Assembly: GCA_011389865.1 (NCBI GenBank) | Contig: JAABTL010000008.1 | Coordinates: 1 to 64,000 of the forward strand | DNA from: Trueperaceae bacterium | GTDB taxonomy: Bacteria; Deinococcota; Deinococci; Deinococcales; Trueperaceae | Length of the DNA stretch: 64,000 bases | Direction: 5' to 3' | Program-made: the position numbers and the translations under genes | Part shown: one piece after another, positions 37,463 through 42,710 of the stretch | Position numbering within the stretch: position 1 is the stretch's first letter | Layout of the letters: each line of letters starts with the position of its first letter | Notes under the pieces: model-generated | The model's database searches: none | Told to the model about the DNA's origin: nothing | What the model saw: the letters and a program-made list of their open reading frames with translations, nothing else

Positions 37463-37762
37463 TCAACCCCGACGATAGCGCGCGGCGGGTGCGCGGACGC
37501 CGACGGTGGGCGGCCGGAGCGGAGCGTCCGCCGGCCACGTCGTCACCGAGGCCCGGGCCGTGGGGCGACCGGTGCCGTCGACGGGAGCGTGCGCGCGCGA
37601 CGGGCGTGCGAGGTCGTCGATGGTGAGGTCGTCCAACAGCACCAGTTCGCAGGTCTTGGCCAGCGACTCGAGCGTGGACCACAGGCCGGCCACGTCGCGG
37701 TAGGTCTGCTCCGTCACCTCGACGATCAAGCGTCCCCGCATCGCCGGCAGCAGGTCGGCCAT
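37463..37762 (-). CDS. 99-residue protein with EAL-like segment, possibly a fragment
   Basis: The ORF begins MADLLPAMRGRLIVEVTEQTYRD and continues LESLAKTCELVLLDDLTIDDL before a low-complexity tail. The IVEVTE...LDD spacing resembles the core of EAL phosphodiesterase domains (EVTE then LDDFG). However, the EAL signature itself and most of the barrel are absent. It is either a short regulatory remnant or a degraded gene; no ribosome site is clear. The rest of 37763-38137 holds the candidate peptide and the divergent promoter described separately. Confidence 0.35.
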   Translation of the reverse strand: MADLLPAMRGRLIVEVTEQTYRDVAGLWSTLESLAKTCELVLLDDLTIDDLARPSRAHAPVDGTGRPTARASVTTWPADAPLRPPTVGVRAPAARYRRG

Positions 37763-37868: not shown

Positions 37869-38009
37869 TCAGCCGACGTCGATGTCACCGGGTTGGCCGG
37901 AGCTGCCCACCATCGTCGTCGGGGTCGGGAGGCCGCCCGAAGCTGCGACCAGGCGTGTGAGGACCAGGGCGGCGAGGATGCTGCGGAGCGCGCGTGCCAG
38001 GGCCTTCGT
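37869..38009 (-). CDS. candidate 46-residue exported peptide (non-standard ACG start)
   Basis: A minus-strand frame begins ACG (38009-38007), four bases after GGGAGGTGA (38021-38013), and reads (M)KALARALRSILAALVLTRL then VAASGG and a polar end TTMVGSSGQPGDIDVG. It has the basic, hydrophobic and cleavage regions of a signal peptide, which would leave a mature peptide of ~20 residues. A TATCTT -10 box at 38037-38032 would start the mRNA ~16 bases before the codon. ACG is a rare initiator and an in-frame TGA lies two codons upstream, so no ordinary start is available. A base error turning ATG into ACG is possible. Divergent from the BTAD regulator cluster. Confidence 0.35.
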   Translation of the reverse strand, partial: TKALARALRSILAALVLTRLVAASGGLPTPTTMVGSSGQPGDIDVG

Positions 38010-38031
38010 GGCTCACCTCCCGAGATGCTGG

Positions 38032-38115
38032 AAGATAGTCGCGACCCCGCTTCAGACCCGCTTCAGCCAATCCCATGCACGTGCAGCGCCCCTGAAGCGG
38101 CCCCGCCCCTAACCT
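38032..38115. promoter_or_regulatory. divergent promoter with SARP-type direct repeats
   Basis: On the minus strand, CTGAAGC occurs at 38066-38060 and 38055-38049, two 7-mers separated by 4 bp, followed by 11 bp and the -10 box TATCTT (38037-38032). On the plus strand, GTGCAGC (38081-38087, 5 of 7 matching) and CTGAAGC (38092-38098) have the same 4-bp gap, and TAACCT (38110-38115) follows after the same 11 bp. Heptamer repeats at 11-bp pitch close to the -10 box are the recognition pattern of SARP/OmpR-type winged-helix activators. A BTAD regulator is encoded just downstream. TGCACGTGCA (38076-38085) is a perfect palindrome at the centre. Confidence 0.6.
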
Positions 38116-38137
38116 TTTCGAAGAGAAGGAGGTTCGC

Positions 38138-38374
38138 ATGACGCACCAGGAAGCGAGGCGCGTCGTCGAGGCGTCGACGCGGTTCGATGTTCGAGGCGGG
38201 TACGTGTGGCTGCGCGAGGTGCGATGGTTGCGCGCCGCCGGACGCCAGCGATGCGAGGAGGCCGCGTCGGCCGAGCCGCTGCAGGAGAGCGTGGATGCGG
38301 CCCTAGCGCTCGGTGTTCGCTGCCCATCTTTGGGATCCCGGCGGGGCGGCCGGCGGGCGGTTCCGATCACCTGA
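38138..38374 (+). CDS. 78-residue protein of unknown function upstream of the BTAD regulator
   Basis: ATG 38138 follows one of the strongest ribosome sites in the window (AGAAGGAGGTTCGC) and a -10 box TAACCT at 38110-38115. The product (MTHQEARRVVEASTRFDVRG, then GYVWLREVRWLRAAGRQRC) is basic and probably cytosolic. Its C-terminal third (RCPSLGSRRGGRRAVPIT) is low complexity and may not be conserved. No family recognised. It shares direction with the regulator gene, which begins about 100 bases later, so they may be co-transcribed. The well-formed translation signals are the main support. Confidence 0.55.
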   Translation: MTHQEARRVVEASTRFDVRGGYVWLREVRWLRAAGRQRCEEAASAEPLQESVDAALALGVRCPSLGSRRGGRRAVPIT

Positions 38375-38393
38375 GTCCGGCGCGCGCGCCGGC

Positions 38394-38446
38394 GCAGGCC
38401 CGAGCACGCGCGGGGCCGCGCCAACGCAGGTCCGAGCACGCGCGGG
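38394..38446. repeat. two 21-bp direct repeats at 32-bp pitch
   Basis: GCAGG-C-CCGAGCACGCGCGGG at 38394-38414 recurs at 38426-38446 with one change (C to T). The pair lies just before the regulator's start and could be a binding site or a simple duplication. Confidence 0.6.
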
Positions 38447-38468
38447 CCCGCGCATGCTCGGGGCGCGC

Positions 38469-38474
38469 TATCGT
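38469..38474 (+). promoter_or_regulatory. -10 box (TATCGT) for the BTAD regulator, leaderless spacing
   Basis: TATCGT ends 6 bases before GTG 38481. This supports GTG as the start in preference to ATG 38454 upstream. Confidence 0.45.
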
Positions 38475-38480
38475 GCTCGC

Positions 38481-40961
38481 GTGTGGCTGGCGCGCCAACT
38501 CGATGCGGTTCTGGGCGCCGATCGTCCGGTGCTGCTGCTCGGCGGCGAGGCCCACGGGTCGCCTTACGTTCTCGACACCTTGCGCACGAGGCGGCGGACT
38601 GCGTGGTGGACGCTTCCGAGTGCCTTCGCCGGCGACGACGTGGCGCAGGGTAACGCCCTGGCCGAGGCGCTGAACGACGTCCTGGAGGCTCCCCTCTTCC
38701 CCCAGGCGCTGCCCTATCGAGCGCACCTCCAGGGACTCCGCCACCACGCCGCCGACCTCCTGCCGCTGTGGCTCGCCGTCACCTCGGCGATCCCGGACGC
38801 GGCGCTGTTGGACGACCTCACGGAGCTTGGCGGCGCCGGCTTCGGCGTCGTGATCGACCTGCGCTTGCATGACGCGACGCCCGCGTCGGCTTGGGCGTCG
38901 CGCTGCCTCCGGCTGGGTCCGGCCGAGATGCGCCTGTCGCTCGCGGAGGCGGCGCAGGTCGCCCCGGGCGGCCTCGGCCGCGAGCGCGTCGCCGAGCTGT
39001 GGTGGACGACGGAGGGCCGCTTCACCGACCTGATGCGGGCCGCGCACGCGGCGGTCGGCCTGCCACCGCTCAACGTCCCGGCGCCCGCCGGACCCCTCCG
39101 CCCCGCGGACCGCGCCGAGCCCGTTCCGAGCGCGCTCGCGGTCCGCGCCCTGGCCCGCGAGGGCGACTGGATCGACGCGCTCGAGCTCGCCGTGCTGGCC
39201 GCTCCGGAGCTCGTCGACGACCTGCTGAGGACGGCCGGCCCCGCCTTCCACGAACGCGGCCTGACGCGCCGGCTGCACCTGCTGCTGTCGGCGCTCCCGC
39301 CGGCGTACGCGCGTCAGGAGCGGGTGCTGGAGTGGCGGCTGGTAGCGGCGGCGGAGGCCGGCGAACTGCCGTCGGTCCTACCCGACGTCGACGCCCACCT
39401 CGCCGCCCATCGTGCGCCGGACCTGCGGGCGCGGCGCGCCGGCACGCTGCCGCACGCGGAGGGCTTCGGCCTCGCCGAGCAGGCGGTGCGCGACCACCGG
39501 ACGCCCCTGACGCTGTGGCAATACGGGCGCTTGCACCCGGACTTCGACGTGGCCACCAAGCTGCTCGAGGAGAGCGTGCGGCTGGCCGAAGACGGCGGGT
39601 CGCCCCACGCGGTCTCGCGCAACGCAGGCAGCCTGGCGGCGAAGCTGGTGCACGTCGGGGAGTTCGCGCGTGCCCGAGCCTGGGCGCAGTTCGCCCTGGG
39701 CGTGTTCGACCAGCACCAGCTGCGCGACGGCGCGCGGCGCCTGCGGCTGGTCAACGACCTGGCGTTCGCCCGCCTCCTGACGGGTGACGTCGCCGGGCTG
39801 CGGCGCGGCCTCGCGGATGCGGCGGCCACCCTGACGGCCGCCATGCCGGCGGTGGCGGACCTCTACCGCAGCACCTGGGCCGCCGTGGAGCTCGCCGGTG
39901 GCGACCCGGAGGCTGCCCTGGCGCTGTTGCGACCGCTCGTCGAGGGCGCTCCGAGGGCGCGCCGGGCGTCGTTCGCACAGCTGGCGGTGCGGGCCCTGCT
40001 CGACCTCGACCGCGTGGACGAGGCCGTGCTGGTGGCGGAGGACGCGGTCGAGTTGGCCGCCGGTATGGGTGACCACGCGCGGCGCGTCGCCCGCCTCGCG
40101 CGCGGGATGGCCGAGGCAGTCCGCGCCGCGCGTGCCGGCGGCGAGCCGGGCGATGCGCGCTGCGAGCGTGCGAGGGAGGACCTGCTCGTCGTCATGACCG
40201 CTACCGATGTCGCCGCCGAGCTACGGCTGCCGGCCGCGCTGCACTACCTCCTCACCACCGGCGGCGCGGCGCAGGACGTGCCGGCCGACCTCGTCCGGAT
40301 CCTCGTCAGCCTTCACCCGTTGGCGCTGCGCCTCTTCGCCGGGCCGGCCGACCTCTTCGCGCCCATCTGGGACGCCGTCGGCGGTGGGGGGCCAAGGCTC
40401 CGCCTGCGCTTCTTCGGCACGGTCGCGTGCCGCTGGGACGGTGTCCTCATCGACCTCTCGCCCCGGTTGGCGGAGGTCGCGCTCGCTCTGACGCTCTCGC
40501 CCGACGGCGTGTCGCGCGACCGGCTCAACGACTTCCTGACGCCCGACGGCCAGCCGCCGTTCACCGGCAGCGGACTCCGGGGGCTGCTCACGCGCCTGCG
40601 TGGCCTTCTGCCGGTCAGCGAGGCGCCGTACCGCTGGACGGCGCCGTTCTCCGCCGACGTCGCCGAGGTCGGAGTGATGATCGCCGACGGCCGGGTGCGC
40701 GAGGCCATCGCGCTGTGGCAGGGCCCGCTGCTGCCCCTCAGCGAGGCACCCGGTGTGCGCGAGGCGCGCGAGACCCTGGAGGAGTCGCTGCGGCAGGCGG
40801 CGCTCTTGAGCGGCGATGGCGACGCGCTGTACGAGCTCGCGGACCGCTGGGGCGACGACTTGGTGCTGTGGGAGGCTGCCGCCGAGGCGATGCCGCCCGG
40901 TGAGCCGCGGCTGGCACTGGCACTGGCGCGCGTGCGGCGACTCGCGGCTGCCTACGGTTGA
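38481..40961 (+). CDS. large BTAD/SARP-like transcriptional regulator with helical-repeat sensor region
   Basis: The ~826-residue protein starts WLARQLDAVLGADRPVLLLGGEAHGSPY, resembling a STAND/MalT-type NTPase start but without a GKT P-loop. A long TPR-like helical region follows (~280-600). Near the C-terminus (~680-800) are a winged-helix and BTAD-type block: LRLRFFGTVACRWDGVLIDL, LSPRLAEVALALTLSPDGVSRDRL, SGLRGLLTRLRGLLPV and helices REAIALWQGPLLPLSEAPGVREARETLEESL. Domain order is reversed relative to classic SARPs, whose DNA-binding part is N-terminal. It probably activates the divergent promoter at 38032-38115. GTG 38481 is chosen for its TATCGT box; ATG 38454 is in frame and possible. 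Confidence 0.7.
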   Translation: MWLARQLDAVLGADRPVLLLGGEAHGSPYVLDTLRTRRRTAWWTLPSAFAGDDVAQGNALAEALNDVLEAPLFPQALPYRAHLQGLRHHAADLLPLWLAVTSAIPDAALLDDLTELGGAGFGVVIDLRLHDATPASAWASRCLRLGPAEMRLSLAEAAQVAPGGLGRERVAELWWTTEGRFTDLMRAAHAAVGLPPLNVPAPAGPLRPADRAEPVPSALAVRALAREGDWIDALELAVLAAPELVDDLLRTAGPAFHERGLTRRLHLLLSALPPAYARQERVLEWRLVAAAEAGELPSVLPDVDAHLAAHRAPDLRARRAGTLPHAEGFGLAEQAVRDHRTPLTLWQYGRLHPDFDVATKLLEESVRLAEDGGSPHAVSRNAGSLAAKLVHVGEFARARAWAQFALGVFDQHQLRDGARRLRLVNDLAFARLLTGDVAGLRRGLADAAATLTAAMPAVADLYRSTWAAVELAGGDPEAALALLRPLVEGAPRARRASFAQLAVRALLDLDRVDEAVLVAEDAVELAAGMGDHARRVARLARGMAEAVRAARAGGEPGDARCERAREDLLVVMTATDVAAELRLPAALHYLLTTGGAAQDVPADLVRILVSLHPLALRLFAGPADLFAPIWDAVGGGGPRLRLRFFGTVACRWDGVLIDLSPRLAEVALALTLSPDGVSRDRLNDFLTPDGQPPFTGSGLRGLLTRLRGLLPVSEAPYRWTAPFSADVAEVGVMIADGRVREAIALWQGPLLPLSEAPGVREARETLEESLRQAALLSGDGDALYELADRWGDDLVLWEAAAEAMPPGEPRLALALARVRRLAAAYG

Positions 40962-42565: not shown

Positions 42566-42710
42566 CTTGGGGGTTGGGGCCTCCGGCCCCAACCCCCAAG
42601 CCATTGCAGTTCGCGAGCGAAGCTCGCGAACTGCCGAGTCCGGCGGGGGCCTCCGGCCCCAACCCCCAAGCCATGGCGGTTCGCGAGCGAAGCTCGCGAA
42701 CCGCCGAGTC
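42566..42710. repeat. tandem two-copy hairpin element with a compensatory base-pair change
   Basis: Copy 1: a perfect 16-bp hairpin (42566-42600, arm CTTGGGGGTTGGGGCC, loop TCC), then a perfect 13-bp hairpin (42606-42634, arm GCAGTTCGCGAGC, loop GAA). Copy 2, 70 bp on: GGGGCC-TCC-GGCCCC (42646-42660) and a 14-bp hairpin (42675-42705, arm GGCGGTTCGCGAGC, loop GAA). In the second stem, an A-T pair in copy 1 is a G-C pair in copy 2, a compensatory change that keeps pairing. Copy 2's first hairpin has lost its outer left arm. It may act as the icd terminator, or be a REP-like mobile structured repeat. Confidence 0.8.

Follow-up and report, generated by a model that had tools for sequence, protein, structure and literature searches.

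AfsR of Streptomyces coelicolor, a SARP-type regulator, combines a winged helix-turn-helix (wHTH) domain and a BTAD domain with tetratricopeptide repeats (TPR) and activates the small gene afsS by way of repeats of 11-bp period just upstream of the −10 element. At SARP promoters the repeats have a period of 11 or 22 bp, and some 8 bp separate the last of them from the −10 element (PMC10936776). The RRNPP regulators of Bacillota and phages (Rap, Rgg, NprR, PlcR, PrgX, and AimR) are TPR receptors encoded beside the gene for a short exported pre-peptide. Here we describe a locus in a 64,000-nucleotide stretch of DNA from a Trueperaceae bacterium of the phylum Deinococcota (contig JAABTL010000008.1 of assembly GCA_011389865.1, positions 1 to 64,000; hereafter the window), whose genome measures 3.05 Mb. 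The locus holds genes for a large TPR- and SARP-type regulator, for a protein of 78 residues, and, in the opposite direction, for a short peptide of exported type. We consider it probable that these genes form a self-contained peptide pheromone circuit that resembles the RRNPP systems and has a SARP-type activator at its core, with the peptide as the putative ligand. Literature searches on BTAD, Deinococcus, and peptide quorum sensing, with subscription journals mostly outside their coverage, returned no described peptide pheromone system in the Deinococcota.

Two Outward-Facing Promoter-Like Units

The interval 38010–38137 contains two promoter-like units arranged back to back, each facing outward. 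In both, a repeat pair of 11-bp period is followed, in this order, by 10 bp, a −10 box, a Shine-Dalgarno sequence, and a reading frame (46 codons on the minus strand; 78 residues on the plus strand):

38048–38065, minus strand: SARP-type direct repeat on the peptide side, TGAAGCG-GGTC-TGAAGCG (7-mers at 38059–38065 and 38048–38054, 4-bp gap)
38032–38037, minus strand: −10 box TATCTT of the peptide promoter, 10 bp past the second TGAAGCG
38082–38099, plus strand: SARP-type direct repeat on the small-protein side, TGCAGCG-CCCC-TGAAGCG (7-mers at 38082–38088 and 38093–38099, 4-bp gap)
38110–38115, plus strand: −10 box TAACCT of the small-protein promoter, 10 bp past TGAAGCG

An earlier note, made from the sequence of this stretch, had pointed to 7-mer direct repeats with 4-bp gaps on both strands, each pair followed at 11 bp by a TAnnnT box. 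The repeats are confirmed: dinucleotide shuffling of the intergenic sequence, repeated 4000 times, produced a repeat pair on both strands in no case (0/4000) and on either strand in 0.125%. The boxes stand as well, but the spacing does not, being 10 bp from TGAAGCG and 11 bp only if the repeat is counted as CTGAAGC. The sites thus follow the SARP promoter rule in their 11-bp period and depart from it by 2 bp in the distance to the −10 box (10 bp versus about 8 bp), and binding by a SARP-type protein is predicted.

We compared regulator orthologs of 39–84% identity together with their upstream regions, which is the conservation check that the earlier note had proposed. Relatives keep both the repeats with their −10 boxes and the peptide frame; in alignments of close triples the repeats and boxes are near-invariant, and most of the drift falls in the middle of the intergenic region, between the two units. 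On the peptide side, the 10-bp gap to the −10 box is present in all 16 of the 16 aligned loci with a recognizable TGRAGCG or TTCAACG repeat. The sites are also confined to this locus. A search of 39 Trueperaceae genomes with the pattern TGRAGCG-N4-TGRAGCG-N9..11-TANNNT gave 19 matches in 15 genomes, all 19 of them in the divergent region of the locus; the reversed pattern, used as a control, gave none in the same genomes.

Two diverged genomes retain the peptide-side geometry with different repeats, TTCAACG in place of TGRAGCG in G011 and a CGGYAAC repeat with one mismatch in G036. The wHTH recognition helix is likewise altered in the regulators of both genomes (from GxRxxxTRLR to xLRSxVSxLR). 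Because the independent changes number only two, we take this joint change of repeat and helix as supporting rather than decisive. On the peptide side of locus L067 (genome G031), no sites with the geometry of the locus were found.

A Short Peptide of Exported Type and a Small Protein

The two units lead into the following elements:

37869–38009, minus strand: gene for the putative exported peptide, 46 codons, (T/M)KALARALRSILAALVLTRLVAASGGLPTPTTMVGSSGQPGDIDVG, identified by profile, alignment, and dN/dS; it starts with ACG here and with ATG in relatives
38014–38021, minus strand: Shine-Dalgarno sequence GGGAGGTG of the peptide gene, kept in relatives
37872–37907, minus strand: C-terminal tag GSSGQPGDIDVG, candidate mature pheromone, with aligned D and G invariant
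38138–38374, plus strand: gene for a small protein of 78 residues belonging to no known family, with a conserved N-terminal stretch of about 38 residues and profile matches down to E 4.8e-24

The peptide begins with basic residues, continues with a hydrophobic stretch, and closes with an acidic, variable tag of about 12 residues whose last positions read D-x-G; its signal-like N-terminus suggests that it is exported. The 46-codon frame and the spacing of its Shine-Dalgarno sequence are as the earlier note had described them, but a standard start codon is missing. Close pairs of peptide genes have pairwise dN/dS values of 0.13–0.46, indicating purifying selection. A peptide profile made 16 strong matches in the 39 genomes, all 16 at this locus; since 14 of the 16 had themselves built the profile, the weight of the search lies in the absence of copies elsewhere.

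From clade to clade the tag differs while the remainder of the peptide is kept. One relative, L024/L026, carries the GSSGQPGDIDVG tag twice, and the precursor of L067 has at least five tandem copies of GLVVPDVGDSG, the contig end interrupting the precursor. Multicopy pheromone precursors are known (PMC11343458) and offer a comparison for the repeated tags of L024 and L067. The peptide of G036, MVKKIVTLGLICLSLSTFAFARPGNGGGDVCRTSVSSTR, is divergent to the small-protein gene.

Within the first 38 or so residues of the small protein an A, an F, and an R are invariant, and its tail is not conserved. Its profile matches 18 genomes, in each of them at this locus alone, and neither Pfam nor NCBIfam yields a match to it. 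With pN/pS values of 0.28–0.84, the signal of selection is weaker; that the small protein modulates the regulator is our guess.

A Regulator with a C-Terminal SARP-Type Domain

Downstream of the small-protein gene lie the regulator gene and its own −10 box:

38481–40961, plus strand: regulator of 826 residues, with an N-terminal region of uncertain fold, a TPR middle, and a C-terminal wHTH-BTAD part (residues 637–826)
38469–38474, plus strand: −10 box TATCGT upstream of the regulator start, TATCST-like and 6–8 nt before G/ATG-TGG-CT in most orthologs

The most likely start is the GTG at 38481, which stands in the conserved G/ATG-TGG-CT context. A start farther upstream, at 38313, was rejected, since GTG-TGG at 38481 is the conserved one. 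Because the conserved start sits 6–8 nt after the TATCGT box, the regulator mRNA is probably leaderless.

The helical repeats and the BTAD-type identity that the earlier note had assigned to this protein are both borne out at the level of the family. Among 20 family members examined with Pfam, 14 match TPR_12 and 4 match PF17874 (MalT-like TPR), and a few relatives' regulators match Trans_reg_C and BTAD. The profile of the family aligns with TPR structures and, weakly, with the DNA-binding domain of CpxR; compared by hhalign with ten canonical SARP domains from the window genome, it gave a probability of 97.1 (E 6.7e-11) over residues 637–826. The SARP domain is thus the last 190 or so residues of the regulator and not its N-terminus, so the domain order is reversed relative to AfsR. 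No NTPase domain was found by Pfam in any of the 20 members (0/20), and the N-terminal 200 residues possibly hold a degenerate P-loop, by eye only. Of the named relatives found, Trueperaceae bacterium KA26, assembled from a metagenome, is the closest; it has a regulator 83–84% identical.

Linkage of the Three Genes

The peptide, small-protein, and regulator genes are conserved together in 18 genomes, in which a short pre-peptide gene, exported to judge by its sequence, adjoins that of the regulator. Peptide and small protein were never found apart from the locus in the 39 genomes. Within the clade, the layout holds for all orthologs whose contig includes the upstream region: the peptide gene lies to one side, and the genes for the small protein and the regulator lie to the other. 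In G036 the regulator gene is inverted, so that it adjoins the peptide and small-protein genes in convergent orientation. The peptide-linked Trueperaceae regulators (the EAL/small-protein type) group together in a single clade, with an SH-aLRT support of 100.

The Neighboring EAL Gene and the State of the Window's Copy

A stand-alone EAL gene (PF00563), of the cyclic di-GMP (c-di-GMP) phosphodiesterase kind, directly follows the peptide gene in all four relatives tested (L024, L055, L063, and L066; E 1e-28 to 3e-34). At this position the window has a remnant:

37463–37762, minus strand: remnant of an EAL phosphodiesterase gene, found by tblastn with the EAL protein of L024; residues 1–123 and 189–242 of the relative's protein are missing

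With a broken EAL gene and ACG as the first codon of the peptide, the window's signal and output arm looks decayed, while the regulator, the small protein, and both promoters are intact. The window organism's circuit may be a dying remnant in which peptide production has ceased and only the receptor survives, perhaps listening to neighbors. The change from ATG to ACG and the two deletions in the EAL gene speak for this; the intact peptide frame, Shine-Dalgarno sequence, and promoter speak against it, as does a dN/dS of 0.37 relative to L040. Moreover, ACG can initiate translation weakly, or it may be a consensus error of the assembly. We see the chances as evenly balanced. The question concerns one genome only and offers no competitor to a pheromone circuit in the family as a whole.

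Related Regulators and Peptides in the Phylum

The regulator family is present in 75 of 111 Deinococcota genomes. Other clades of the family have their own, unrelated peptides of exported type, and for some members none was found. A second Trueperaceae type, to which contig C11 of the window genome belongs, has a conserved exported-type peptide, MKNTGKRIFF...ASQR, in four genomes. In G020 an HD_5 (HD-GYP-like) gene lies between the MKNTGKR-type peptide and the regulator according to Pfam, and the same is seen by eye in G008; at the C11 locus, a gene for an oligopeptide-binding protein is located roughly 1 kb past the regulator. Upstream of the MKNTGKR-type peptides, no sites with the repeat geometry of the window locus were found. 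The leader of these peptides (L081:3324–3603, G000 C11; also L080, L082, and L083) has four conserved TGGGAG motifs, several of them in hairpin loops, and with a fold z-score of −2.8 it is possibly a structured regulatory RNA, although it has no Rfam match; nor did Rfam match anything in the window or elsewhere in the second-type loci. Near the second-type peptide locus, a TPR protein of about 580 residues (L081:1505–3238, minus strand; L083:6367–8130) has a weak match to NNH6, the NACHT N-terminal helical domain.

In each of the 11 loci from a Meiothermus-like group, a third peptide, MRK..LFLALL...ACTRPDCLPPGAVRSGGPSGTGR, is encoded convergently with the regulator, beginning 124–133 nt beyond the regulator stop, a near-constant distance in nearly all of them. 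Its promoter has multiple GGTTACC repeats about 20–22 bp apart that end 10 bp before TAGGGT (spacing by eye). This peptide (L173, L161, L162, and L195–L201) is conserved, of exported type, and contains Cys.

The window genome has a large set of BTAD matches, 21 in its 3.05 Mb, mostly in long open frames. Its other BTAD regulators, most of which carry the SARP domain close to the N-terminus, showed no comparable exported peptide apart from one candidate on contig C28, so the peptide link belongs to the group with a C-terminal BTAD. The C28 candidate (L100:4827–5052 of G000) is an exported-type peptide of 74 residues with CIIC and CCG motifs, encoded between BTAD regulator genes.

Separately, an intergenic region of the window at 42576–42710 has two copies of a 65-bp GC-rich repeat, 95% identical and 70 bp apart, with a palindromic TTCGCGAGCGAAGCTCGCGAA core.

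Discussion

From gene content, conservation, site geometry and uniqueness, domain make-up, and the linkage of three genes in one clade, all of them evident from sequence comparison, we infer a circuit of the following kind. A TPR protein residing in the cytoplasm, with its SARP-type domain at the C-terminus, would activate two divergent promoters through repeats of 11-bp period. One promoter would drive the exported pre-peptide, together with the EAL c-di-GMP phosphodiesterase in relatives, and the other the protein of 78 residues. Outside the cell, the tag at the peptide's C-terminus would be set free and then re-imported through an oligopeptide permease (Opp); the window genome has 15 oligopeptide-binding proteins above the Pfam cut-off. 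Binding of the tag by the TPR region would switch the activator on and raise both promoters, a positive feedback, and in relatives expression of EAL would lower c-di-GMP as the output. Activation is favored over repression because it is the SARP mode of action. The earlier note had likewise envisaged a peptide-signalling circuit, and the conserved sites and frame, the restriction of the sites to the locus, and the joining of TPR and SARP domains give that view support, with the peptide as the presumed ligand.

Several observations weigh against a pheromone circuit. The window's own regulator has no match in Pfam or NCBIfam, TPR included, and its AlphaFold model, with a mean pLDDT of 44, is too poor to use. 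The peptide gene of the window lacks a standard start, having ACG where two relatives have ATG. The filters used found no peptide for four family members in the tree, and no peptidase or dedicated exporter is linked to the locus.

The peptide might instead be an effector, a small secreted product of RiPP-like or antimicrobial kind, with the SARP-type activator sensing something else. SARPs classically control product genes, as in the antibiotic clusters of Streptomyces (PMC10936776 and PMC10972967), and some members of the regulator family have no peptide that we could find. However, no modification enzyme, transporter, or immunity gene is seen at the locus, and the tag is short, acidic, hydrophilic, variable between clades, and in one relative tandemly repeated. 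Furthermore, the sites occur at no other place in the genome, so the peptide gene and the small-protein gene are the only apparent targets. We judge an effector unlikely.

Somewhat less likely again is a peptide that stays in the envelope, as a membrane or periplasmic component, and tunes the EAL enzyme or reports the state of the envelope, the regulator only setting its level. The N-terminus of the peptide could be a membrane anchor, and the EAL gene directly follows the peptide gene in the four tested relatives. Yet by our reading G036 has no EAL gene beside its peptide, and the tandem tag repeats of L067 would be unexpected in a membrane microprotein. Finally, that the repeats are chance products of a very GC-rich region is refuted by their conservation, by the uniqueness of the sites, and by the shuffles, and we give it practically no credence.

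We also put forward, tentatively and with rather less confidence than an even chance would warrant, that the Deinococcota have a phylum-wide class of pheromone receptors (TPR with a C-terminal SARP-type domain), with their own fast-evolving exported peptides, wired to c-di-GMP phosphodiesterases in Trueperaceae, and amounting to quorum sensing independent of RRNPP. If so, SARP-type BTAD regulators, known as activators of antibiotic production, would also act as peptide receptors, and a testable signalling code would be gained for a whole phylum. Since it is compact and its sites lie only in its own promoter region, the circuit would be easy to test and could serve as an orthogonal sensor.

How does the locus compare with described systems? 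With MalT/LAL-type STAND regulators it shares a large protein with a MalT-like TPR region, but its DNA-binding part is an OmpR-type wHTH with BTAD and not a LuxR-type HTH. It resembles the AfsR–afsS system in its domains, in the period and position of the repeats, and in having a small-protein gene under matching sites. Unlike in AfsR, the SARP domain is C-terminal and no intact P-loop can be made out in the N-terminal region; an exported peptide is among the putative targets, and the sites point in both directions within a single divergent region. With the RRNPP systems it has in common the TPR receptor beside a short pre-peptide gene, a pre-peptide C-terminus that is the likely signal, clade-specific tags, and the occurrence of multicopy precursors. 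It differs from them in its C-terminal SARP-type wHTH-BTAD domain, where RRNPP regulators have an N-terminal XRE-type HTH (none in Rap), in its home in the Deinococcota, and in its linkage to c-di-GMP phosphodiesterases. Thus, because DNA-binding domain and domain order differ, the circuit would not be a member of RRNPP, though it appears to work alike.

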